Shown: positions 9,961 through 27,996 of the stretch, piece after piece
How positions within the stretch are numbered: position 1 is the stretch's first letter
Layout of the letters: every line of letters starts with the position of its first letter
Virus record (IMG/VR): IMGVR_UViG_3300021371_000068
Location: 1-31,380 of that record
Source: a virus
Length of the DNA stretch: 31,380 nucleotides
Strand: one strand, 5' to 3'
The notes under the pieces: generated by a model
Databases searched by the model: none
Told to the model about the DNA's origin: nothing
The model's input: the letters and a program-made list of their open reading frames with translations, nothing else
Program-made: the position numbers and the translations under genes

Positions 9961-11331
9961 ATGGCAAATATAACCGCAGTACCATACTTTTACGATAAGC
10001 AATTTAGACGCTATATTCAGCAGTTTATTCGTATCTTTGCGGGCTTTCAGTATGTTAAAGGATACACAGAGCAAGGCGAGCCAGTGTATCATACAACACC
10101 AGTTCGTTACGGCGACATCAGTCGTATGGCAGCACATATACAAAGAGAGAACAGCGAAAATACATTAAGTACTGTTCCTTTTATTAGTTGTTATGTAACT
10201 AACTTACAACCAGACGTAAACAAACGAGTGTTTCCACAGTTTGAAGAAAAAATGACTGTTATTGAAAAAGAATATAATAATGCTACTAACAGTTACGAAA
10301 ATAAACAAGGCAGTGTTTACACAGTAGAACGTCACATGCCAGTACCATATACAATGACAATGCAAGCAGATTTATGGACAAGTAATACTGAGCAAAAAAT
10401 GCAAATGCTTGAACAAATACTAGTATTATTTAACCCAAGTCTTAATATACACACAACAAACAACCCATTAGACTGGAGTAGTTTAAGTGTTGTCGAGCTT
10501 ACAGCAACACAGTGGACAAACCGTGGTATTCCAAGTGGTGTTGATGATATTATTGACATCAGCAGCTTGACATTTGAAATGCCAATACTAATTAATCCTC
10601 CAGCTAAAGTGAACAAAAGCAGTATGATCCATACTGTAATTACCAACTTACATGAAGTTGCTACTGGAGATGCTGACAGTATTAATGTGCTTAACGATAT
10701 TAACGCTATCACTACTAGCTATACAGTAGTAGCAGTTGATAACAAAGTAAAACTAGACGTAACAGGCGGCATAGCCACAGCACAAATATTAAGTAAAACT
10801 GGTGCTGTAGTAGCAGATCTACAATGGGATACGATATTTAAACAATATGGTGCAGAACTTAGAGATAGTGTAAGTCAAATACGTTTTAAGCAAACAGACA
10901 ATCCAAGTGATATGACTACTGACATTATTGGTACACTGAGTGGTGTTAGTGAAACAGACACATTAACTGTAACATTAGATAACAACACTATACCAGCTGA
11001 TACACAAACGGCTGTTGATGCTGTTATTGACCCACAACTTAGTTACCCAGGAGATGGAACACTAACAGCCGCAGCCAATGGAGACCGTTATTTGATACTT
11101 GATGAAATACCTAGTGGAGGAGAATGGGGCACTATATCTGCTAAGAAGAATGACATTATTCAGTATAATGGTACTATATGGAGTGTTACTTTTGATGCCA
11201 GCAACAATGTATCGTCTACACACTATACCACTAATATAGTTACTATGGATAAATTAAAATGGAATGGTACACAATGGGTTAATGCTTATGAAGGTACATA
11301 TAATAGTGGTTTTTGGAGAATATATTTGTAA
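9961..11331 (+). CDS. 15: Tail terminator / proximal sheath stabiliser, gp15-like
   Basis: T4 gp15 caps the tail tube and sheath and docks them to the neck. The first 220 residues follow T4 gp15 closely. PYFYDKQFRRYIQQF matches T4 YFYNSSFRRYATLM. TTPVRYGD matches RVPITYAS. YTMTMQADLWTSNTEQKM and LEQILVLFNPSLNIH match YELSIFTRYEDDMF and VEQILPYFQPHFN. The segment LTFEMPILINPPAKV corresponds to the final gp15 strand (LTFEVNGWMYPPV). The protein is much longer than T4 gp15 (456 versus 272 residues). The extra C-terminal half holds beta-rich material and two Trp-containing repeat units (near YNGTIW and WNGTQW) of the type also seen in the sheath. An AGGA site precedes the ATG. The stop codon overlaps the next start as TAATG. 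Confidence 0.88.
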   Translation: MANITAVPYFYDKQFRRYIQQFIRIFAGFQYVKGYTEQGEPVYHTTPVRYGDISRMAAHIQRENSENTLSTVPFISCYVTNLQPDVNKRVFPQFEEKMTVIEKEYNNATNSYENKQGSVYTVERHMPVPYTMTMQADLWTSNTEQKMQMLEQILVLFNPSLNIHTTNNPLDWSSLSVVELTATQWTNRGIPSGVDDIIDISSLTFEMPILINPPAKVNKSSMIHTVITNLHEVATGDADSINVLNDINAITTSYTVVAVDNKVKLDVTGGIATAQILSKTGAVVADLQWDTIFKQYGAELRDSVSQIRFKQTDNPSDMTTDIIGTLSGVSETDTLTVTLDNNTIPADTQTAVDAVIDPQLSYPGDGTLTAAANGDRYLILDEIPSGGEWGTISAKKNDIIQYNGTIWSVTFDASNNVSSTHYTTNIVTMDKLKWNGTQWVNAYEGTYNSGFWRIYL

Positions 11332-11789
11332 TGTTAACTGCAAGCGGTTGTTGTTTTTTAGCCCTTAATACAGGGCGTATTATGTTACAACAAAGAAGTA
11401 AAGCAGTAAGCCATCCACTTACATGGAGTTTTTGGGGCGGAAAAAGCGAGCAACAAGAACGACCAATAGAAACATTATTACGTGAATGTCGTGAAGAAAT
11501 GGGTGACTTACCAGATATAGAAAAAGTATATCCTATTCATACATTTATTAGTGATGACAAAAAGTTTACCTATCACACTTATTGTGTTACTGTATACGAA
11601 GAATTTATACCAAAAACAAATGGAGAAAGTTCAGGATATGCTTGGGTAGAAATAAATGCTTGGCCAAAGCCTTTACATAAAGGTGCAAGAGTTGTATTAG
11701 GAAAACCAGATATGGTGGATAAGATTATTACTATCTGGGAAAGGCAACGTTATAAAGAAGACTTAACTAACTGGCTAGATAGTTTCTGA
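11331..11789 (+). CDS. Nudix hydrolase
   Basis: Nudix enzymes hydrolyse nucleoside diphosphates linked to another group, such as oxidised dNTPs, NADH, ADP-ribose or RNA caps. The Nudix box fits G-x5-E-x7-R-E-U-x-E-E-x-G: G37, E43, R51-E52 and E55-E56, with Cys53 at the first hydrophobic position. The flanking strand SFWGGK (33-38) is also typical. I chose the ATG at 11331 (152 residues) rather than a TTG 18 bases upstream. The ATG forms a TAATG overlap with the gp15 stop, and a GGAG site lies 12 bases upstream. The substrate is not readable; phage Nudix proteins are known that clean nucleotide pools or act on capped RNA. Its 3' end overlaps the convergent minus-strand gene by 40 bases. Confidence 0.88.
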   Translation: MLTASGCCFLALNTGRIMLQQRSKAVSHPLTWSFWGGKSEQQERPIETLLRECREEMGDLPDIEKVYPIHTFISDDKKFTYHTYCVTVYEEFIPKTNGESSGYAWVEINAWPKPLHKGARVVLGKPDMVDKIITIWERQRYKEDLTNWLDSF

Positions 11790-12841: not shown

Positions 12842-13435
12842 TTATTGAAAATCCTTTGTTTTAATACCCATGGTTGATAAATGAGCACATTGATTACTTA
12901 ATTGTGGATCAATCCAGATATCATAATCGTATTGTTGTAGTTGTTCTGAAAAATAAACATCTTCTCCCATAAAGACATCATTCTCATAATCCCAACTTAC
13001 TTTAAACCATGGGTGTGGTATTTGATTATACACTTCTATATCTGTTAGCATAATACCCATACCAACAGCATGTACTTTATATAGTTCATTACAATGCGTA
13101 TGTGGAAGATAATTTTCATCCATTGCAACGTTACGATATGGTTGTGTACGTGTACTATATGTTCCAGCTACAACTGGCTTCTGATGTGCAGACAATGTAT
13201 GGTATATATTAGACGGGAACACCATGTCACTATCTAACCATAGTATTTGATTACAGTTAGCTCTTTGTGCATCTAATACTAATTGATATCGTTGGTTTTG
13301 TATTAAACTACCGTTTTCAAAAAACAAATGATATTGTACATGATTACGAACTAAATTAGCAGTTAATTGAGATAAGCAGAAAGCAAAATTACTATGACAT
13401 ATATCACGTACAGGAACACATATTCCTAACAACAT
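12842..13435 (-). CDS. Family 2-type glycosyltransferase-like protein
   Basis: This short (197-residue) GT-A fold protein begins with the usual first strand LLGICVPVRD. The DxD motif lies in ILWLDSDMVFP (64-74), where D68 and D70 would bind metal and nucleotide-sugar. The acceptor-side acidic motif is GEDVYFSEQL (157-166), followed by a late His (H185) near the C-terminus, as in related phage and bacterial enzymes. It lacks any membrane segment, so it would act in the cytoplasm on a soluble acceptor such as a fibre protein, DNA or a sugar-lipid head group. It lies two bases after the unknown 145-residue gene and directly before the second glycosyltransferase-like gene. The donor and acceptor are unknown. 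Confidence 0.75.
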   Translation of the reverse strand: MLLGICVPVRDICHSNFAFCLSQLTANLVRNHVQYHLFFENGSLIQNQRYQLVLDAQRANCNQILWLDSDMVFPSNIYHTLSAHQKPVVAGTYSTRTQPYRNVAMDENYLPHTHCNELYKVHAVGMGIMLTDIEVYNQIPHPWFKVSWDYENDVFMGEDVYFSEQLQQYDYDIWIDPQLSNQCAHLSTMGIKTKDFQ

Positions 13436-13437
13436 AG

Positions 13438-13875
13438 TTACATCATATTTTCAGGAACAACATCATCTTGTTGTACAGATTTTTCTACATTTTTTACTTC
13501 ATGATTAAGTTGGCTTGCAATAATCGTGCTACGTTTAACACAATCTTTAAACCATTCATCGCCCAAGCACGTCATGTCAGTCATAGTTTCTGTACTTACT
13601 TTTCCAGTTGACAATAATTCAACAGCACTCCGTTTAGCAAGAACCTCAACATAATATTTGATTTCTTCTTCATCACTAGTAAACGACAGTTGTGACTTAT
13701 CGTATTCAGATTCTAGTCTCTTCTTTGCCATCTTTAGGGTTTTAATACGTGATTTATTCTTGCGCCAAAATGGAACACTAGTTGCATCAGCAATGTCTTG
13801 ATTAACTTTACTATATTTTGCTGCGGGGGTTAGACATCTGCCTAAGACAAATGTACTATATTCAAATTCAGACAT
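13438..13875 (-). CDS. Uncharacterised 145-residue protein
   Basis: I do not recognise this protein. It is mostly hydrophilic and probably helical. A basic stretch (RKNKSRIKTLKMAKKRLE, about 38-55) is followed by an acidic one (TSDEEEIKYYVEVL). It lacks a signal peptide and membrane segments. The ATG has an AGGAG site seven bases upstream. Its stop lies two bases before the glycosyltransferase gene, so it may be a partner or a small virion protein co-expressed with the sugar-transfer genes. Confidence 0.7.
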   Translation of the reverse strand: MSEFEYSTFVLGRCLTPAAKYSKVNQDIADATSVPFWRKNKSRIKTLKMAKKRLESEYDKSQLSFTSDEEEIKYYVEVLAKRSAVELLSTGKVSTETMTDMTCLGDEWFKDCVKRSTIIASQLNHEVKNVEKSVQQDDVVPENMM

Positions 13876-19106: not shown

Positions 19107-19114
19107 TATTTATA
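19107..19114 (-). promoter_or_regulatory. Consensus T4-type late promoter for the giant S74 fibre
   Basis: On the minus strand this reads TATAAATA, an exact T4 late consensus, 26 bases before the fibre ATG. It overlaps the stop codon of the transporter gene (19110-19112), so the fibre is expressed independently of the accessory block upstream. Confidence 0.8.
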
Positions 19115-20150
19115 GCATTAGAGTTAAAGCGCCTGCTGTAATCACTAACATTCCCCAAATGCCTAATATAGTAACATAATATCTAAACTTGGTTCCGAAG
19201 TATAACATACCGATTGCAACACATTTATGCATTGGACTAATTAAGTAACCAACAAAGTCAACTGCAAAAAACCAAGGCAGATATGCAATACCGTATATAC
19301 TGGCCATGATTACTGTAAGTGCACCAAATCGACTACTGCTACCTAATGCAAATGCACCAGCAAAACTTGCAAGACTTAGCATTGTAAATCCACTCCAAGT
19401 ATTGATATCTAGTCCACTGTTTTCTAAAAATTCTTTGATTGCACTAGTGTTTTCTCTAGCAATATTTGCTGCAACGATAATAACAGCAACCCATCCGATT
19501 AGTTTCCAGTCTACAGAACGTAATAATTTTGGAATATCAAATGTGCGAGTAACTACCATATAGTATAGTGTAAGAGTACCAAATGCCCATAAAAAATTAA
19601 CACCTGCAATTATGGCGCCAACGCCTGTTACATAAGGTAATACATAACGTGTTATACGACTTACTTTAATTTCTCTTTCACAATCATTGAGTTCAACATC
19701 ACTTTCTTTTACACCCCAAACAAGATAAGAGATAATAAATGCAATGCTCACAGCCAGTAATGGCCAAATGTAGCCCATAAATTGTGTGTAAGTTAAACCT
19801 AGCACCGCCATTGGAAGAATAACTGTCTTTTCCAGTGGGCTCCAAAAATAATAATGGTGTGTGCTTACATAGTCAATAGGTCCAAACTTTTCTCGACCAC
19901 AACAACCTTTATCGGGTGCAAGTGTGTCTAACATGCCAGCACTAACTGTAACACGACCTTTGATAGGTAGTAGTCCTGTTAGTGCACTTACAATAGCAAC
20001 TACCGCTTTCTTACTTTTTAAATTCTGTTCAAAGAAACAGAAGATGTCGTCGAATAATCTATGTTCTTTTACCATGCCTGCAATCATCATTACAAATACG
20101 ATTAGGAACAAGTATACTTGTCCGTTTAATGCTAAGTCTATGTACTCCAT
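19110..20150 (-). CDS. Multi-pass membrane protein, DUF401-like transporter
   Basis: This 346-residue, strongly hydrophobic protein has about nine or ten membrane segments (for example 11-27, 48-62, 109-146, 168-200, 215-231, 253-297, 324-345). It would sit in the host inner membrane. Two segments fit what I remember of DUF401, a poorly characterised permease-like family. One is LTGLLPIKGRVTVSAGML (57-74), corresponding to the LLPxPGGxxxSAP loop, followed by an aromatic-rich HHYYFWSPLE. The other is GYLISPMHKCVAIGMLYF (301-318), corresponding to the SPxHLC...YF motif. The substrate is unknown. The start forms a TAATG overlap with the preceding gene, and its AAGAGGAAA site lies inside that gene's last codons. 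A transporter is not a usual tail-module gene and stands out here. The family call rests on motif memory only. Confidence 0.68.
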   Translation of the reverse strand: MEYIDLALNGQVYLFLIVFVMMIAGMVKEHRLFDDIFCFFEQNLKSKKAVVAIVSALTGLLPIKGRVTVSAGMLDTLAPDKGCCGREKFGPIDYVSTHHYYFWSPLEKTVILPMAVLGLTYTQFMGYIWPLLAVSIAFIISYLVWGVKESDVELNDCEREIKVSRITRYVLPYVTGVGAIIAGVNFLWAFGTLTLYYMVVTRTFDIPKLLRSVDWKLIGWVAVIIVAANIARENTSAIKEFLENSGLDINTWSGFTMLSLASFAGAFALGSSSRFGALTVIMASIYGIAYLPWFFAVDFVGYLISPMHKCVAIGMLYFGTKFRYYVTILGIWGMLVITAGALTLML

Positions 20151-20875
20151 TATTTCCTCTTAAAATGTTTGTAATATGCATTTTGTATTTTTGATTTTAT
20201 GTGTATAAAACCTATGTTGTCAAAATACTTTCTTTTTTCTAACCATTCAAGATCATGTTTTGTTGCATCACGAACTTCATGCTTATACTTTTTTTCTGTT
20301 ATTGGTATTAATTGTGCAAGTGGCGTACCCGCTTTAATTATATGTACACCTTGGGTGTTCCAATATCCTTGTAAATTAATATCACTACTTATACTAGGGT
20401 CAAGTATACCTTGACAACATTCAAATATCATATTTTCATTATAAGGTAATGGCATCATCATAAACTTTACATCGCTAACAATTTGCCAAGGCGTGTTTAT
20501 TTTTAGTATGTGTGGATTACTCCATGGACGTTTTGGTAAAAACTTACCAATACTGTCTCCACGCTGAACTTGTAGTGTGTCTTTACCCAATATATCATTT
20601 AGTGTAACACTTGGCATACTCATGTTAATACGAGTTGCATCTGCTTGCACTTCAATATCATGCCAAGCATGTATAATATATCCTGTTGTTAGTATGTCAA
20701 CAATACCAGGACATCTTGCAATATGTACATCGTGTTTCTTCTGTTGATAATCAGCTCGTGCTAATGCTACCCACTGTGGCAAGGTGTTACGAGCAGTTGT
20801 TATAGGGTATGCTTCAGTTAAGCCTTGTACTTTGCTGAAAAACTCTATTTTAGTCGACTTGGTTAAACCTAACAT
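20150..20875 (-). CDS. Conserved phage/marine protein of unknown function
   Basis: I recognise the style but not the function of this 241-residue protein. It has HIARCPGIVDILTTGYIIHAW (from about residue 51), a Pro/Trp-rich middle (FLPKRPWSN, NTPWQIV), MMMPLPYNEN, and near the end IKAGTPLAQLIPI. Similar proteins with CPG, a GYIIPLW-like stretch and a GTPxxQxIP motif recur in marine phages and bacteria without a known reaction. The pattern suggests a beta-rich, cupin-like fold, but this is a guess. The N-terminus overlaps the 2OG oxygenase gene by 26 bases and the C-terminus overlaps the transporter start, so translation is coupled on both sides. Membership of the same cassette suggests a shared pathway. 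Confidence 0.75.
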   Translation of the reverse strand: MLGLTKSTKIEFFSKVQGLTEAYPITTARNTLPQWVALARADYQQKKHDVHIARCPGIVDILTTGYIIHAWHDIEVQADATRINMSMPSVTLNDILGKDTLQVQRGDSIGKFLPKRPWSNPHILKINTPWQIVSDVKFMMMPLPYNENMIFECCQGILDPSISSDINLQGYWNTQGVHIIKAGTPLAQLIPITEKKYKHEVRDATKHDLEWLEKRKYFDNIGFIHIKSKIQNAYYKHFKRK

Positions 20876-21443
20876 TATATACTATATTGATCCTATTTCT
20901 ATTGCTTTTGTTTATTTCAACTTCATGTGGCATCCAACTTGGCCATACAATTAAATCACCATCCTGTGGATCAAAGCTAAATGTATTCATAAACGGACTA
21001 AGCACGTTACATGTTAGTAATGTATTAGCTGGGTTTAATAAATTAAGAGAACCAGTGTCAGTTCCTTGTATATAATAAACTGCACTAAAGTTCCACTTTT
21101 CATGTGTATGTAATTTATTAATACTGCCTGGTTGGTTTACATTAGTCCAACTATCTATTTCAGGCGGGCCAAACTGTTTTATTTTGTTATTGTAAGTTGG
21201 ATCGTGTTCCAAGTAATATCCAACTGCTTTGTTAATCGTTTCCTTGAGTTTTTGTTCTAACCAATCCGAGTTGTTGTAAGATATCTTACTGCGCCAACAA
21301 CCATCATTACTCATACCAATTTGTGGATGATTAGGATTATTATAGGCTGCTAATGTTTGCTGTAGTAAATCATCACGCTGCAACTCAGTGCCGCAGTTAT
21401 GTTCGATAAATGCATCACTTTGTACTAATTTAACTTGGTTCAC
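20850..21443 (-). CDS. 2-oxoglutarate/Fe(II)-dependent oxygenase
   Basis: Enzymes of this type use 2-oxoglutarate, O2 and Fe(II) to hydroxylate proteins, nucleic acids or small molecules. The core motifs are visible: LHTHEKWNFSAVYYIQG (111-127) with H112/H114 as iron ligands, GDLIVWPSWMPHEVEIN (162-178) with H173 as the distal ligand, and R184 in NRNRINIVYNVRF to bind 2-oxoglutarate. This pattern fits the TIGR02466-type family common in marine phages. The length of 197 residues is normal. The start is a GTG at 21443, because the first in-frame ATG is 43 codons further in; the gene overlaps the preceding fusion gene by 14 bases. The substrate is unknown. Its place next to the U32/methyltransferase fusion suggests successive modification steps. 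Confidence 0.85.
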   Translation of the reverse strand: MNQVKLVQSDAFIEHNCGTELQRDDLLQQTLAAYNNPNHPQIGMSNDGCWRSKISYNNSDWLEQKLKETINKAVGYYLEHDPTYNNKIKQFGPPEIDSWTNVNQPGSINKLHTHEKWNFSAVYYIQGTDTGSLNLLNPANTLLTCNVLSPFMNTFSFDPQDGDLIVWPSWMPHEVEINKSNRNRINIVYNVRFNQVD

Positions 21444-23052
21444 GTTGTACTACCAAAATATAAAGACCATTCCACCATTGTGTAGGATTTTCTACATTAT
21501 TAGTTATAACACGGTGGTTAATAACTGTCAAGCCAGCATTTTGTATACCTTGATTAGCACCACTAACTACACCTTGCCAATTAAAATCATCAAACACAAG
21601 TATAGCAGTATCAGCAAGTGTGTCTGCATAATATTCAACTGCTTGTGCGGTTGTAATTTCATCATGTGGTCCGTCATAAAAGAACAAGTCAATGTCATTT
21701 AGTTTGCTTTTATCTACCGCAAATAAATCACTGTCATGAATAGTAATATTGTCGCCACTTACATTTTTATCAAACTCTTTTTTTGTATTATTTGGTAGTG
21801 CAAAAACATCTAGTTCAGGCTGTATATTTTCTTCCCATTTGTCAACACAATGTATTTGAATATCATTGTTTTGAGCAACGGCGGCGGCGGTTGCTCCCAT
21901 AGCACTTCCTATCTCTAGATAATTGTTACAGTGTTTACTCAATCCATATAGTAAATTTTGTACTCTTGGACTAGTTAATCCCATAATATTAATATTGTTC
22001 TCATAGTTAACACTATCAACTAATTCTTTTGCAACTGCTAATGTATATGGATTAGTTTTAATTGGAGACTTCGCTTCGTATACTAGATCACAAAAATTAC
22101 ATTCCCAACAATCAAATTTACAATTTTTAATTTTTTTACGCCAGGCATCAATTGGTCTGTCTTTTAAATTTGTATCTTCAAGATAAGTGTTAAACGTGTC
22201 AAATAATATTTCTTCATTACGTGCATAACGTTGTACAATACTCAGCGTATTAAAAAACTGTTCAATACTCTCTCTACCATGCATTTTAAACACATCAACA
22301 TAATCTAATAACTCTACCCAATCATCACGCCAAGGTGGAATATTTGCTGTTTTTAGTGCAGTACTTGGATCTTCCACACTCCACTTTTCACAGGTACTAC
22401 GACTAATTGGATCAGCAAAGTATGTAGGTGAATCTGGTGCTCTGGTGTTGTTAAACTGAAAATGTTCATCCATCATAGTACAACCACCCAAACAACCTTC
22501 GTTTCCTAATAGTGCAATTTTTACACCAAACTTGTCTGCTGCTCTGCGTATTTTTTCTAGTGCATCTCTATCCCGCATTAAGTCACGATCGATGTTGATG
22601 TAATTGAATCCTGTTTTAGCTAAATTAGCTACTTCATTTGGATGTGTGACATTGCGCAAGATAGTATTTTTAATAAACAGTTCTGGAAACTCTTTTTGTA
22701 TTTGTCCAGTGCTTAACCAATGAGTATGCGGTATAGTAGCACTACGCACGCCTGCATCATATAACTGACGGAAATTTGCTATAAACAAGTCTAAGTTTGC
22801 TTGATCAGGTCTAATAAGTGTATTATTAAATGTGGCACTGATTGGTATACCAGTTCTTTGTTGTATATACAATGCAGCGTCTATTGGTGCGCCAATATCT
22901 TCAAATACATCTCCCATTGCGTCTTGAACAAACGGAGGCATACGACAAGTAAAGTACAAGTCATATATATGCTCTCGGTATTGCTCAAGGAAACTTACAA
23001 AACTATTGAATTGATTTTCGTTGAGTTTTAGGTTAATTGGTATACTGAACAT
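21430..23052 (-). CDS. U32-like Fe-S protein fused to a SAM-dependent methyltransferase
   Basis: This is a two-domain protein of 540 residues. Residues 1-330 resemble the U32 ('peptidase U32') TIM-barrel family. They include GNEGCLGGCTMMDEHF (183-198, C187 and C191), C221, DVFKMHGR (253-260), and a Cys cluster NCKFDCWECNFC (310-321, C311/C315/C318/C321) that could hold an Fe-S cluster. Residues about 350-540 are a class I methyltransferase: SAM loop LEIGSAMGATAA (379-390), acidic D404, DLFFYDGPHDE (455-465) and ILVFDDFNW (484-492), as in Methyltransf_24 proteins. Known U32 members act in RNA hydroxylation or in O2-independent ubiquinone hydroxylation rather than proteolysis. A fused hydroxylase-methylase is therefore plausible, but the substrate is unknown. 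The start forms TAATG with the upstream gene and the 3' end overlaps the oxygenase gene. Confidence 0.75.
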   Translation of the reverse strand: MFSIPINLKLNENQFNSFVSFLEQYREHIYDLYFTCRMPPFVQDAMGDVFEDIGAPIDAALYIQQRTGIPISATFNNTLIRPDQANLDLFIANFRQLYDAGVRSATIPHTHWLSTGQIQKEFPELFIKNTILRNVTHPNEVANLAKTGFNYINIDRDLMRDRDALEKIRRAADKFGVKIALLGNEGCLGGCTMMDEHFQFNNTRAPDSPTYFADPISRSTCEKWSVEDPSTALKTANIPPWRDDWVELLDYVDVFKMHGRESIEQFFNTLSIVQRYARNEEILFDTFNTYLEDTNLKDRPIDAWRKKIKNCKFDCWECNFCDLVYEAKSPIKTNPYTLAVAKELVDSVNYENNINIMGLTSPRVQNLLYGLSKHCNNYLEIGSAMGATAAAVAQNNDIQIHCVDKWEENIQPELDVFALPNNTKKEFDKNVSGDNITIHDSDLFAVDKSKLNDIDLFFYDGPHDEITTAQAVEYYADTLADTAILVFDDFNWQGVVSGANQGIQNAGLTVINHRVITNNVENPTQWWNGLYILVVQREPS

Positions 23053-23777
23053 TATAAATTAAGTGATGAGTTTTGGTTGGTTCCGAATTCGTCAAACATT
23101 TGTTGTACTGGCATTTGTAAATCATACCTATTATGTAATAAACGGTTACAGTCTGGAATGGTTTGACATGATTTAATTTCTTGTTCAACAGCCTGTTTTT
23201 GTGATAGTAAAGTAGCTACTTTTAAATTATATTCATCAACTGCACTGTTAACTTTGTTAACCATTTCTTGTAGTGTAATACCACGAGCTGTTGCAAGTAA
23301 TTGTAACATTGGTGCATTAGGTGATTCAGGATTAAAGGATTCAGCTTCGGCTCGCTGTTGTGCCCAACTACTAGCTTCAAGATCGCTGGTTGTCAAATTT
23401 AATCCTTGCTGTCTTTTGTCATAAACTTCATCTAGCCATTTACGCATAATTGCTTTCATTAGTTTTACTGTGTTTTGTTTTTCTGTATCTGACAAATAGT
23501 ATTTTTGTTTGTACACCATTTCTTCTTCACTGGCCATCAAATCAAGCTGTTCCATCTGTACAGTATTATCTTTAACAGTTATAAAGTCTCGATACTCACC
23601 TATAAACTTCCAAGCCTTTGCAACATTATCATCTAGAACAGTCGGATTGAGATGTTGGTATTCTAAAATATCAACATGTGTTTCAGGAATATATCCAATA
23701 GTCCATAAAGTCCATTCGCCATAGTGAATAATATTACGCTGTGTTTTTTCATCAACTTTCTTAAATAAAATATACAT
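23052..23777 (-). CDS. Tail-fibre-assembly-like chaperone (DUF4376-like C-terminus, tentative)
   Basis: This 241-residue protein has an N-terminal beta-type part (YILFKKVDEKT, WTLWTIGYIPE). Its helical C-terminal half reads SWAQQRAEAESFNPES, then APMLQLLATARGITLQEMV and LLSQKQAVEQEI. This succession (W-x-x-Q-x-x-E-A-x-x-[FW], a Pro-x-L-x-x-x-A-x-A-R-G-I helix, and a final Q-[KR]-Q-A-[LV]-E helix) is characteristic of phage tail-fibre assembly proteins, many carrying DUF4376. Such proteins help fibres fold or attach. It lies downstream of the three adhesin genes and the second S74 fibre, a fitting place for a fibre chaperone. An AAGGAAG site precedes the ATG. The assignment rests on pattern memory. 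Confidence 0.55.
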   Translation of the reverse strand: MYILFKKVDEKTQRNIIHYGEWTLWTIGYIPETHVDILEYQHLNPTVLDDNVAKAWKFIGEYRDFITVKDNTVQMEQLDLMASEEEMVYKQKYYLSDTEKQNTVKLMKAIMRKWLDEVYDKRQQGLNLTTSDLEASSWAQQRAEAESFNPESPNAPMLQLLATARGITLQEMVNKVNSAVDEYNLKVATLLSQKQAVEQEIKSCQTIPDCNRLLHNRYDLQMPVQQMFDEFGTNQNSSLNL

Positions 23778-23779
23778 GA

Positions 23780-24550
23780 TTAATCTTCCTTTGTCAAGCC
23801 TAATAAGGCTCTATATGGTGCGCTGGTAATACCTTTTTGCGCCATTTCATTTGCATTACTTAAATGCATTTGCAATCTTTGTTCATTTCTTACAAGATAT
23901 TCACTGGCAAGTTGTAATGTTGCTTCTTGTTGTCCTGGTGACATCATTGCAATTGCATCCATGTTACCAACACCAATACGCCCGTATGCTACCATATCCA
24001 TAGCTGCTTGTTTTGCCAATCTGTATGTCCAGTGTTGTGCTTCTAGTTTTTCAGACACTTCTTTATCACCGATTACATCAATTAGCAACCTACCATCTTC
24101 ATATTTTCCTTCAGGTGTTTGATTAAATTTTTCAATAAGATCAAGATATGTTTGTCTTTCTTCATATGCTGCTTTTAATTTATGAAGTAATTTTTTATAA
24201 TTGCGATCTTCATGTTCGATATCTAAACTAATGTCTTCAAGATCAAAACCTGATAATTTCTCTGCTTCTGTTTTTAGACGATTTAACTTTACTTTACATT
24301 TTTTAGTATCGTATTCCATTTGCTCAATTACGTCTTCTCTACTAGAAATTTCTAACATGTACTGTTTAACTTTTGCATATGGTGTAATTTGTGCATTGCC
24401 AACAAAATTCTCTGCTTTAAAAGCAGGCAATCCATTTCCATTACTAATACTTTTACTAATAATGTCTTGATGTTCAACACTCATATCTGTCGTATCTGTA
24501 ATTAAATCTGTACGACTGTATGTTGTTAAATCTGTTACTTCGTTTTTCAT
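23780..24550 (-). CDS. Uncharacterised coiled-coil protein
   Basis: I do not recognise this 256-residue protein. Residues about 60-165 are heavily charged with heptad-like spacing (EDVIEQMEYDTKKCKVKLNR, then LKTEAEKL, LHKLKAAYEERQTYLDLIEK), indicating a long coiled coil. The C-terminal part (KQAAMDMVAYGRIGVG, then MMSPGQQEATLQLASEYLVR) looks like a compact helical domain. No membrane segment or signal is seen. The gene lies between the adhesin triplet and the chaperone-like gene with short spacing and an AAGGAT ribosome site. A role as an adhesin partner, tail-tip connector or assembly factor is possible. Confidence 0.7.
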   Translation of the reverse strand: MKNEVTDLTTYSRTDLITDTTDMSVEHQDIISKSISNGNGLPAFKAENFVGNAQITPYAKVKQYMLEISSREDVIEQMEYDTKKCKVKLNRLKTEAEKLSGFDLEDISLDIEHEDRNYKKLLHKLKAAYEERQTYLDLIEKFNQTPEGKYEDGRLLIDVIGDKEVSEKLEAQHWTYRLAKQAAMDMVAYGRIGVGNMDAIAMMSPGQQEATLQLASEYLVRNEQRLQMHLSNANEMAQKGITSAPYRALLGLTKED

Positions 24551-24561
24551 TCTTTATCCTT

Positions 24562-25698
24562 TTAACCTTTCCATACACAGTGACCGCTTGATCCACCAGC
24601 AGGGCCAGTTCTTACACTTCCTGCTCCCAGTGTTGCGCCTGACTCTGTTTGGTAATAAAACTTCCATCCAATGTTGTTTTGTGCACCGTTATACATTCCC
24701 ATCATGTACTGGTGGTGTTGTCCCATATCAAAGTTTTCTTCACCACTGTTGCCAACTGGCTTAGTGACAGTTCCTATGTTTTGTCCTGTGTTGTATTGTG
24801 TTTTACGTAAATTATACCCACCAGAATAGTTTCCTTCATTACCTGCGAAACCTATTCCGTGCTTACTACTTATGCCTTTTTGTTGACTACTGGAGCTACG
24901 GGCAATATCAGTTTCAACAACTGCGGTTTGGCTTGCTGAAAAATTAATTCTGTATCCAGCAGTCGCATGCCATGCATAACCTTCATATTCTCCACTATGC
25001 GATGACATACCGTTTTGTCTAGTTCCACCACCTGTAGCAGTTGTTAAACTTTGTGCAGCATACATTGTATTATTTGTAAAGTTGAATACATCTATATTGG
25101 ATTGACCGCCACCACATATATACGCATATTCGTGTTCTTTGAATACAGTTGCGCAATCATTTCTACTATAAAGTAGTGTAGGACAATCTCCAGCAACTAA
25201 TCCTGTTTCTGTGAACATATTAATACCACTAGTAGTTGTGCTCGCAGTACTGTGTGTGTTATTGGCATTCCAAATATAACCGTAAGTTAGCCCGCAGCCA
25301 CCGCTACTGTAACTCCCCTTTGTATGTAATAAGTCTCCTAAATTAACTGTTAAATCTGTTTGGTGATTCATACTGTTAACATTTAGCCATGGCACACCAC
25401 TTTGATATCCGCCCATTACATAGCTTTTTGTAATGATTTGTCTAAATAAAAACTGTCTTTGCTCTTGACTAACTTGCCGCCATTCACTACCATCATATAG
25501 TTCCATGGCTTTTGTTTTATCATTAAAATATACTTGCCCTTGTACTGGACTACCTGGTCTTGATGTAGCACCTGCAACACCGCTTGCTACATTAGTGTTT
25601 CCTCTACTTTGCCAAGTTGTTCCGTCCCACTCCCAAACTTTGTTATCATGTACATGCATTTGTCCTACACTAGGACCACCTGGAAAACTTATTGCCAT
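24562..25698 (-). CDS. Adhesin-like virion protein, paralogue C of a tandem triplet
   Basis: This 378-residue protein starts with MAISFPGGPSVG, typical of small virion proteins of marine T4-like phages. A Trp-rich N-terminal module (WEWDGTTW, then GQVYFND and LYDGSEWRQVSQ) is followed by a large domain with repeated Gly-Gly strands: YVMGGYQSG, YAYICGGGQSNIDVFN, EGNYSGGYNLRK. This spacing suggests a kelch-like beta-propeller. SRNDC, NVNSMNHQTDL and GNSGEENFDMGQ are shared with its two neighbours. It ends GGSSGHCVWKG. The start overlaps the stop of paralogue B as TAATG. I infer a receptor-binding or baseplate-decorating protein; no enzyme motif is visible. Confidence 0.72.
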   Translation of the reverse strand: MAISFPGGPSVGQMHVHDNKVWEWDGTTWQSRGNTNVASGVAGATSRPGSPVQGQVYFNDKTKAMELYDGSEWRQVSQEQRQFLFRQIITKSYVMGGYQSGVPWLNVNSMNHQTDLTVNLGDLLHTKGSYSSGGCGLTYGYIWNANNTHSTASTTTSGINMFTETGLVAGDCPTLLYSRNDCATVFKEHEYAYICGGGQSNIDVFNFTNNTMYAAQSLTTATGGGTRQNGMSSHSGEYEGYAWHATAGYRINFSASQTAVVETDIARSSSSQQKGISSKHGIGFAGNEGNYSGGYNLRKTQYNTGQNIGTVTKPVGNSGEENFDMGQHHQYMMGMYNGAQNNIGWKFYYQTESGATLGAGSVRTGPAGGSSGHCVWKG

Positions 25699-26840
25699 TA
25701 GCTACCACTCCATCCACAATGTCCACTAGACCCGCCAGGAACACCAGTTCTAATACTACCAGCACCCAATTCATAGCCGCTGTCAGTATAATAACTAAAC
25801 TTCCAACCACGATTATTTTGTACACTATTTCCATACATTCCTAGCATATATTGGTGATCTTGTCCCATATCAAAATTCTCTTCTCCGCTGTTACCAACAG
25901 GCTTTGCAACATTACCTATATTTGTTTCTGTACTAAATTGCCAGCGTCTTAAATTGTAACCACCTTGATATGTTCCTTCATTACCAGCATAACCTTTACC
26001 TACTTTACTGTTAATACCTTTCTGTTGGCCATTAACACCACAGACACTGCTCGTAGATATTGCCGCAGTTTGGTTTGCTGCAAATGTAAATTTGTTTCCT
26101 GCGCCATTAGGATAAACATATCCTGCTGCTTCACCGTTTATGCTTCCCATGCCATTGTTTGTGCCGCCTGCACTAGCTGTTGTCATACTTTGTGCAGCAT
26201 ACATTGTATTATTTGTAAGGTTAAACACATCAACATTTGTTGTTCCACCACCGCAAATATAAGCATATTCTGTTTCTTTAAATGCAGTTCCACAGTCATT
26301 TCTCGAATACAGTAATGTTGGATTTCCAGTAGCAACACCCGTTTCTGTAAACATATTAATACTGGCAGTTGTAGTGCTTGCAGCATTATGTGAATTATTT
26401 GCATTCCAAACGTAGGCATAAACTTTACCACATGCACCACTTGCATAACTTGCTTTTGTTGCTAGCAAATCTCCCAAGTTTACCATTAAATCTGTCTGGT
26501 GGTTCATACTGTTAACATTATACCATGGACTACCTGACTGATATCCACCCAGAACAAAACTCTTGGTAATAACTGTTCTGTGTAAATATTGTCTATTATC
26601 CTGACTAACAGCTACCCATTCTTCACCATTAAACATTTCCATAGTTTTATTGAGATCATTATAGTAAACTTGTCCTGAAACTGCAACGTTATTGGCCGGA
26701 CGATTACTTAATGTACCAATAAATTGTATTTCATGATCGCCACCAACTTGATTCCAGCTGACACCATCCCAATACCAACGTAGTCCATTATGTGTATGAA
26801 TTGCGCCAACGCTGGGCGATCCTGGAAAACTTATAGCCAT
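25698..26840 (-). CDS. Adhesin-like virion protein, paralogue B of a tandem triplet
   Basis: This 380-residue protein has the same architecture as its neighbours: MAISFPGSPSVG, a Trp module (WYWDGVSWNQVG, GQVYYNDLNKTMEMFNGEEW), then the propeller-like domain (FVLGGYQSG, YAYICGGGTTNVDVFN, EGTYQGGYNLRR). It ends GGSSGHCGWSGS. I start it at the ATG at 26840, not at a TTG four codons upstream, because the GGAG ribosome site six bases before the ATG overlaps that TTG. It is the only member of the triplet with its own late promoter directly upstream. Compared with A and C it replaces the AGDCPT stretch with a shorter ATGNPT and has different loop residues, consistent with altered specificity. Confidence 0.72.
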   Translation of the reverse strand: MAISFPGSPSVGAIHTHNGLRWYWDGVSWNQVGGDHEIQFIGTLSNRPANNVAVSGQVYYNDLNKTMEMFNGEEWVAVSQDNRQYLHRTVITKSFVLGGYQSGSPWYNVNSMNHQTDLMVNLGDLLATKASYASGACGKVYAYVWNANNSHNAASTTTASINMFTETGVATGNPTLLYSRNDCGTAFKETEYAYICGGGTTNVDVFNLTNNTMYAAQSMTTASAGGTNNGMGSINGEAAGYVYPNGAGNKFTFAANQTAAISTSSVCGVNGQQKGINSKVGKGYAGNEGTYQGGYNLRRWQFSTETNIGNVAKPVGNSGEENFDMGQDHQYMLGMYGNSVQNNRGWKFSYYTDSGYELGAGSIRTGVPGGSSGHCGWSGS

Positions 26841-26862
26841 ATTATACTCCAATAACTACGTA

Positions 26863-26870
26863 TATTTATT
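26863..26870 (-). promoter_or_regulatory. T4-type late promoter before adhesin B
   Basis: On the minus strand this reads AATAAATA, 22 bases before the adhesin B ATG, with the GGAG ribosome site in between. It overlaps the stop codon of adhesin A (26869-26871). It would drive B, C and the genes downstream. Confidence 0.6.
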
Positions 26871-27996
26871 AGCCTTTCCAAACGTTGTGTCCACTACTAC
26901 GCCCAGCAACACCAGTTGGCTCGCTTCCTGCTCCCAATACTGTGCCACTATCTGTTTCATAATACCACTTCCAAGTATTGTTGTTTTGTGCACCATTATA
27001 ATGACCTGTGCAGTATTGATGATACTGGCCCATATCAAAGTTTTCTTCACCACAGTTACCTTGTGGTTTAGATACATTACCTATATTTGTTTCTGTACTA
27101 AACTGCCAGCGTCTAAAGTTATATCCGCCGCTATACGATCCTTCGTTGCCACACCAGCCTTTTCCTAATTTACTGCTGACGCCTTTTTGCTGACTATGTG
27201 CTCCAGTAACACTGCTTGACGCAATTGTTGCTGTCTGGGTTGCCGCAAAAGTAACTTTATTACCAACGCCGCTGTCGTGCCAAGCAAAACCTTTATCTTC
27301 ACCGCTAAACGCACCCGCATATCCAGAAGCCTGTGAAGTTAAACTTTGTGCACCGTACATTGTATTTGTAGTTAAGTTAAACACATCTACAGAGGATTGG
27401 TTGCCGCCAATAATCCAAGCGTACTCGTGTTCTTTGTGTACTGTACCACAGTCATTTCTTGAATACAATAGTGTAGGACAGTCGCCTGCAACTAATCCTG
27501 TTTCTGTGAACATGTTAATGCCAGCGGTTGTTGTGCTGGCGGCGGCATGTGTGTTATTGGCATTCCATATAAATCCATAAGTTAGTCCACATGCACCGCT
27601 ACTATAGTTTGCTTTTGTATGTAGTAGATCGCCCAAGTTAACACTTAAATCCGTTTGGTGATTCATACTGTTAACATTATACCAAGGACTACCTGACTTG
27701 TAGCCTCCCATAGTAAAACCTTTAACGATTACTTGTCTATGTAAAAACTGACGTTCATCCTGACTTACATAACGCCATTCATCACCGTCATACATTTCCA
27801 TTGTTCCTGAAAAGGTATTAAAAAATATTTGTCTATTAACAGGATTGCTGGGCCTAGTGCTTCCTGTAGGAATGTATGTCATTGTAACACCATTCTCGTC
27901 ATAGGCTTCCCAACTGGTGCCGTCCCATTGCCACTTAAATCCATTATGATTGTGTATTGCCCCTACACTAGGACTACCTGGAAAACTAATTGCCAT
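26869..27996 (-). CDS. Adhesin-like virion protein, paralogue A of a tandem triplet
   Basis: This 375-residue protein has the same start (MAISFPGSPSVG), Trp module (WQWDGTSWEAY, RQIFFNTFSGTMEMYDGDEW) and propeller-like body (FTMGGYKSG, YAWIIGGNQSSVDVFN, EGSYSGGYNFRR) as the next two genes. It ends GRSSGHNVWKG, so the Cys of the SSGHC ending in B and C is replaced by Asn. Several blocks (GLVAGDCPTLLYSRNDC) are closer to C than to B. The start overlaps the stop of the S74 fibre as TAATG, so it is translationally coupled to a fibre whose tip it may decorate. Confidence 0.72.
   Translation of the reverse strand: MAISFPGSPSVGAIHNHNGFKWQWDGTSWEAYDENGVTMTYIPTGSTRPSNPVNRQIFFNTFSGTMEMYDGDEWRYVSQDERQFLHRQVIVKGFTMGGYKSGSPWYNVNSMNHQTDLSVNLGDLLHTKANYSSGACGLTYGFIWNANNTHAAASTTTAGINMFTETGLVAGDCPTLLYSRNDCGTVHKEHEYAWIIGGNQSSVDVFNLTTNTMYGAQSLTSQASGYAGAFSGEDKGFAWHDSGVGNKVTFAATQTATIASSSVTGAHSQQKGVSSKLGKGWCGNEGSYSGGYNFRRWQFSTETNIGNVSKPQGNCGEENFDMGQYHQYCTGHYNGAQNNNTWKWYYETDSGTVLGAGSEPTGVAGRSSGHNVWKG

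Follow-up and report, generated by a model that had tools for sequence, protein, structure and literature searches.

A phage protein joining a U32-like barrel to a methyltransferase, and its link to a tail-fibre-like protein

U32 proteins are widespread and few have a known reaction; to our knowledge, none is established to modify a protein. The U32 proteins TrhP and RlhA are needed for hydroxylation of RNA pyrimidines, and the hydroxylated base ho5U34 is methylated by TrmR (PMC6599085). Oomycetes and a diatom have TrhO-TrmR fusions (PMC6599085), in which a hydroxylase and an O-methyltransferase form one chain and which resemble in this respect the enzyme described here; TrhO, however, is rhodanese-related, uses O2 and is no U32 protein.

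Among phage proteins, the closest relative of the barrel described below is the U32 of RB69-type phages, whose gene occurs in 218 phage records, those of RB69-type phages among them. In phage Entb_45 (L198:7485-9588), the U32 gene (ENTB45_106, a PF01136 member; E=2.7e-11) is directly followed by genes for a type II chorismate mutase, which makes prephenate, and a thymidylate-synthase-type enzyme. RB69 DNA carries arabinosylated 5-hydroxycytosine; the paper on it (PMC13390438) credits the synthase, and a term search of its text found the U32 gene unmentioned. This gene row fits prephenate-dependent hydroxylation in the making of 5-hydroxycytosine. In the literature searched we found no published phage U32 hydroxylase, and in viral contigs no UbiU relatives.

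A fusion protein encoded on the minus strand

The window, a stretch of 31,380 nucleotides comprising IMG/VR virus record IMGVR_UViG_3300021371_000068, contains a minus-strand ORF with its ATG at 23052 and its stop at 21430 (Table 1). The first-pass annotation had described a 540-residue chain of two domains at this place and had given no strand; the chain is confirmed on the minus strand, the plus strand of the interval being closed by many stops. The protein matches phrog_1458, a PHROGs family of unknown function, over its full length (E=8.8e-156; 519 of 519 profile positions), and Methyltransf_24 was the only Pfam family above its cut-off. Its gene lies in a tightly packed row, since it overlaps its neighbours at both ends: its start and the stop of the phrog_1604 gene share TAATG at 23052, and a 2OG-Fe(II) oxygenase gene begins at 21443, before the enzyme gene has ended.

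Table 1. Features of the fusion gene and its surroundings in the window
Feature	Position	Strand	Basis
2OG-Fe(II) oxygenase, directly downstream; frequent, not constant neighbour	20850..21443	minus	Pfam, PHROGs, contig neighbours
U32-like barrel-methyltransferase fusion (phrog_1458, T4-GC 354), 540 aa	21430..23052	minus	ORF, PHROGs match
Class I SAM-dependent methyltransferase, residues 349-540	21433..22008	minus	PF13578; Z up to 17.4 to O-methyltransferases
Presumed metal/catalytic residues D460, D488, D489, N491	21580..21675	minus	Invariant in 48 sequences
SAM-binding motif LEIGSAMG, residues 379-386	21895..21918	minus	Sequence; E380, G382, G386 invariant
N-terminal U32-like TIM barrel with cysteine-rich end, residues 1-331	22060..23052	minus	AlphaFold2, 5d88 match, profile comparison with controls
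Second cysteine set C311-x3-C315-x2-C318-x2-C321, C-terminal appendix aligned with RB69-type U32 appendix	22090..22122	minus	Alignment
K-M-H-G-R, residues 256-260, counterpart of U32 K-I-E-G-R	22273..22287	minus	Sequence comparison; K-x-x-G-R invariant
First cysteine set C187, C191, C221 (NExC, end of barrel strand 6)	22390..22494	minus	Invariant in 48 sequences
phrog_1604 (T4-GC 352 family)	23052..23777	minus	PHROGs; overlaps enzyme start
phrog_1409 (T4-GC 353 family)	23780..24550	minus	PHROGs; upstream of enzyme in 127/127 usable loci
Tail-fibre-like phrog_1417 (T4-GC 351 family), first of three tandem paralogs	24562..25698	minus	PHROGs, comparison
Second tandem phrog_1417-type paralog	25698..26852	minus	Comparison
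Third tandem phrog_1417 paralog	26869..27996	minus	Comparison

The second domain had been proposed to be a class I methyltransferase carrying LEIGSAMG, and its Pfam match, its fold and its invariant SAM motif all bear this out. PF13578 (Methyltransf_24) covers residues 379-490 (E=2.5e-11, 44.8 bits against a cut-off of 26.3) and matched all 19 C-terminal domains of the family that were scanned. In the predicted model, the closest solved folds are O-methyltransferases (Z 15-17), including catechol O-methyltransferases and Bacillus subtilis TrmR (YrrM; Z 16.4); these share the fold of the domain but are separate proteins. The enzyme family's profile gave no sequence match to solved structures at E 0.01. 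Eight residues (E380, G382, G386, D404, D460, D488, D489 and N491) are invariant in 48 relatives, and the last four presumably serve metal binding and catalysis, as in COMT/TylF-type enzymes.

For the first domain, a U32-type barrel had been suggested. An AlphaFold2 model of the whole protein, made with 48 relatives (mean pLDDT 85.9), predicts a TIM barrel whose best match among solved structures is the U32 protein Mk0906 (5d88; Z 16.4, rmsd 3.3 over 223 residues). When the domain was modelled alone (mean pLDDT 81.9; prediction poor for the cysteine loop near residues 187-193), 5d88 matched with Z 14.5 versus 13.4 for the next structure, MTHFR; no Pfam MTHFR match was seen for the barrel. Outside the enzyme's own family, the top match among viral protein models (E=2.2e-8; TM 0.71 for the target) comes from Escherichia phage OLB35; it is labelled "peptidase," and we take it to be an RB69-type U32. 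In hhalign comparisons, the barrel family scored 42.6 against the RB69-type U32, with 296 columns aligned and the cysteine-rich end included, and 40.7 against cellular U32 proteins; these scores are above those of controls (at most 27.4 for 15 unrelated proteins, one of them a TIM barrel, 15.3 for reversed profiles and 24.1 for 60 column shuffles), yet weak in absolute terms (probability 60-70%). The barrel of the P-HM2 relative also gave a weak BLAST match to RB69-type U32.

Other searches were negative: with HMMER, PF01136 matched neither the window, even when E values up to 10 were allowed, nor any of the 32 N-terminal domains scanned; a single-sequence search of the PDB with the fusion protein found no match; and profile searches of solved structures with each domain returned nothing credible. 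The U32 suggestion therefore stands as to the TIM barrel, its best structural match and profile scores above controls, but not as to a match to the PF01136 model. We read the barrel as a true but distant U32 relative, nearest to the RB69-type phage U32, and we call it U32-like, rather than a U32 member, because both a PF01136 match and the usual motif spacing are missing.

The cysteines follow the pattern CX3C-X29-C and then, past the barrel, CX3CX2CX2C, which does not match the CX6CX15CX3/4C spacing of most U32 proteins; UbiU and UbiV also deviate from that spacing (PMC6747719). The C187/C191 pair and the CxxxCxxCxxC cluster (311, 315, 318 and 321) listed in the first-pass annotation are both present; C221 is an additional, seventh cysteine, and all seven are invariant in 48 aligned relatives. 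Judged from sequence, they would allow one four-ligand cluster plus a three-ligand site, or a cluster plus a zinc site. A radical SAM assignment, which the CX3CX2C run might suggest, was dropped because the run lies past the barrel and is without the usual aromatic position.

The enzyme shares its barrel fold class with TrhP, RlhA and UbiU/UbiV, as well as a cysteine at the end of strand 6: C187 follows this strand, which is the site of the first ligand in U32 proteins. These proteins, however, have other cysteine spacing, belong to the PF01136 family, are without a methyltransferase, and have RNA or quinone substrates. K256-x-H258-G259-R260 corresponds to the K-I-E-G-R of the cellular U32 references, a set itself chosen by the K-x-x-G-R pattern; TrhP, RlhA and UbiU carry the motif independently, and K-x-x-G-R is invariant in the 48 relatives. 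For TrhP E162 the enzyme family shows no obvious counterpart: at the position that the motif indicates, most members have A or S, but N184 and E185 nearby are invariant. The RB69-type U32 of Entb_45 has in common with the enzyme the barrel, NExC, K-x-x-G-R and a four-cysteine C-terminal appendix, but it is a PF01136 member, lacks the methyltransferase, and is encoded in a DNA replication/modification region beside chorismate mutase.

An old fusion within a four-gene unit

The first-pass annotation had suggested that a single phage protein of this kind would be a new arrangement; the fusion belongs to a widespread known family, phrog_1458. By tblastn, the enzyme was found in 123 phage records, all from cyanophage T4-like viruses, with ∼40 to 45% identity and at least 80% of the protein covered in each; the fusion is intact in 123 of 123, and no stand-alone barrel without the methyltransferase was found in these isolate phages. 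The genes of P-SSM4, P-HM2 and S-ShM2 are designated T4-GC 354 and annotated "hypothetical protein." Family members such as PHM2_101 and PSSM4_035 match the window protein over its full length and have the same fusion and the same neighbours, but they belong to another phage lineage. Viral contigs, where the first-pass annotation had suggested looking, hold the same fusion family, with 348 and 473 relatives in two scans. Chance is excluded by a family that matches over the full length, counts 123 isolate records and reached over 340 viral contigs in each scan; its occurrence throughout isolates and viral contigs argues that the fusion is old and constant.

A scan of a genome collection gave only two matches, both on phage-like contigs binned into MAGs, and for this reason we rejected a cellular origin of the enzyme. 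The two contigs, L165 and L166, are labelled Dehalococcoidia and Euryarchaeota; L165 is probably a misbinned phage, because its size and match position (10,153 bases, 5078) are the same as those of viral contig L111.

The enzyme gene is part of a four-gene unit together with phrog_1409, phrog_1604 and phrog_1417, the last of which we call tail-fibre-like on the basis of gene position, weak tail-fibre profile matches and annotation. This context is the new result; the enzyme family is annotated "hypothetical," with no proposed function. Across 127 usable metagenome loci (contigs with at least 2.5 kb upstream of the enzyme), phrog_1409 lies upstream in every one, phrog_1417 in 126 and phrog_1604 in 123. 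Among isolates, the enzyme, phrog_1604, phrog_1409 and the C-terminal 314 residues of phrog_1417 were each found in exactly 123 records. Compared by counts of names and hosts rather than accession by accession, the four sets have the same split (77 Synechococcus, 38 Cyanophage and 8 Prochlorococcus names) and agree in their host counts. The number of records is inflated by close S-RIM2 and S-RIM12 isolates, which dominate it, with ∼19 phage names among the matches listed; a related terminase occurs in at least 438 cyanophage records, versus the 123 with the unit.

Whole phrog_1417, used as the query, matched 142 phage records. Two of those beyond the 123 were examined, P-SSM7 and S-CAM22: their phrog_1417 (351) gene has only 196 codons, with the N-terminal part alone in common, and both phages are absent from the record sets of the enzyme, phrog_1604 and phrog_1409. 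Cluster labels in the P-SSM7 region include no 352, 353 or 354. Because these phages with a short phrog_1417 are without the other three genes, the enzyme follows the phrog_1417 C-terminal domain.

In the window, two of the tandem phrog_1417-type paralogs (24562-27996) are 64% identical to the first; upstream of all three, on the same strand, lies a tail fibre with an S74-type end. Other contigs have between one and four phrog_1417-matching stretches. In S-ShM2, about 5.8 kb of other genes separates phrog_1409 from the enzyme; among them, at L210:5635-9687, are petE, gnd, a gene for a minor coat protein and three for 2OG-Fe(II) oxygenases.

Downstream of the enzyme, the genes vary across contigs: 2OG oxygenase, DUF401, denV or phrog_1325. 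The window itself has a DUF401-family gene at 19110-20150 (E=2.3e-11); in other contigs, such a gene is often found downstream of the enzyme. For the window's tail sheath (1-2007), the closest matches come from Pectobacterium phage CBB and from large Pseudomonas phages of the PA5oct type rather than from cyanophages. Of 29 longer contigs with the enzyme, four have a window-type sheath and neck protein, two of these with a terminase 36 to 38% identical to the cyanophage one; six others have a terminase 72 to 78% identical to it, and the rest have neither. Since the unit is present both in kyanovirus-like contigs and in contigs with the window's unrelated sheath, and with different terminases, it has most likely crossed between phage lineages.

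Elsewhere in the window, a second phrog_1409-type gene (13438-13875) follows a large S74-type fibre and precedes a glycosyltransferase-like gene (12842-13435), a row that echoes the order fibre, phrog_1409, enzyme. A NUDIX hydrolase gene with a TTG start (11313-11789) overlaps a tail-sheath-related gene (9961-11331).

Candidate substrates

We tentatively favour, as possible rather than probable, a two-step modification enzyme serving one class of phage tail-fibre-like protein. In this reading, the U32-like barrel would bind an iron-sulphur cluster via C187, C191, C221 and probably one C-terminal cysteine, and would add a hydroxyl to an electron-rich ring or a group like it, perhaps using prephenate, as TrhP and RlhA do; the O-methyltransferase fused to it, which probably depends on a metal, would then cap this hydroxyl. 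The most likely target would be the C-terminal domain of the phrog_1417 protein from the same unit, which phrog_1604 and phrog_1409 may help to fold or present. The two folds (on predicted models), the invariant residues, the constancy of the fusion and its strict linkage to the phrog_1417 C-terminal domain in more than one phage lineage are observed; cluster binding, hydroxylation, its placement before methylation, methylation of the product and the target are all steps that we infer. A hydroxylate-then-methylate reaction can fairly be inferred by analogy, because a U32-like barrel joined to a COMT-like domain repeats the TrhP-then-TrmR order in tRNA (PMC6599085). The co-occurrence shows a working link between enzyme and tail protein, from which the identity of the substrate would be a further step; given the strict tie to the phrog_1417 domain, the likeliest candidate target is this protein or something that it carries. 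Against this reading, the U32 substrates known so far, RNA bases and a quinone, include no protein; the cysteine spacing departs from the usual U32 motif and TrhP E162 is without an obvious counterpart; and in S-ShM2 the enzyme lies apart from phrog_1409.

That the substrate is instead a sugar on the virion or host surface, which the enzyme would oxidize and O-methylate, seems to us fairly unlikely. Many Methyltransf_24-type enzymes act on sugars, and the tail-fibre context, the glycosyltransferase-like gene and 2OG oxygenase of the window, and a glycosyltransferase homologue near the unit in some contigs are consistent with such a role; however, glycosyltransferase and oxygenase are inconstant neighbours, and we know of no U32 protein that acts on sugars, which counts against it.

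RNA modification would have the work of TrhP and TrmR done in one chain, yielding a hydroxylated and then methylated base (for example, mo5U34 in tRNA). The RNA roles of TrhP, RlhA and TrmR and the existence of TrhO-TrmR fusions (PMC6599085) are in its favour, as is the place of TrmR among the closest folds of the second domain, but the strict linkage to a tail-protein domain argues against it, and neither a tRNA gene in the window nor an added RNA-binding domain in the enzyme was seen. The acidity of the protein (pI 4.7-5.8, net charge about −22) is a mild argument in the same direction, indecisive since TrhP is acidic too. We consider RNA modification quite unlikely. More generally, the nucleobase substrate raised in the first-pass annotation finds no support: the gene is locked to a tail-fibre-like domain, sits in tail-fibre modules and moves with them, and encodes an acidic protein. 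The four-gene-unit context is the reason that we favour tail-protein modification over a nucleobase.

It is similarly improbable that the barrel is U32-like in fold only, being structural or carrying out other Fe-S or metal chemistry, with the methyltransferase as the only catalytic domain. The absence of a PF01136 match, cysteine spacing unlike the U32 motif and the resemblance to MTHFR would agree with this; against it, mean pairwise identity is higher in the barrel (62%) than in the methyltransferase (40%), all its cysteines and many polar residues are invariant, and its profile scores to U32 proteins are well above controls. DNA or nucleotide modification, in which the barrel would hydroxylate a pyrimidine nucleotide for the methyltransferase to cap, is very unlikely. 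The genes of phages with glycosylated 5-hydroxycytosine hint at such a hydroxylation, and both sequence and fold place the RB69-type U32 nearest among phage proteins; its gene stands beside those of a chorismate mutase and a thymidylate-synthase-type enzyme, in relatives of RB69 with its modified DNA (PMC13390438). However, the enzyme family has no such partner genes among its conserved neighbours and lies in tail-fibre modules, not replication regions.

To return to modification of the tail protein, all 76 sequences compared have Y130 and Y336 of phrog_1417 (first-paralog numbering), although these two tyrosines may instead be structural. A more specific proposal, that a U32-type enzyme hydroxylates and then O-methylates an aromatic residue such as one of these in a phage receptor-binding protein, we hold to be unlikely; if it were true, host binding would require that the adhesin be finished covalently, by an enzyme that travels in the same mobile module. 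The carriers of the enzyme are abundant phages in whose genomes its gene is labelled "hypothetical," and the family bears on what U32 enzymes can modify and on whether phages chemically finish their adhesins.
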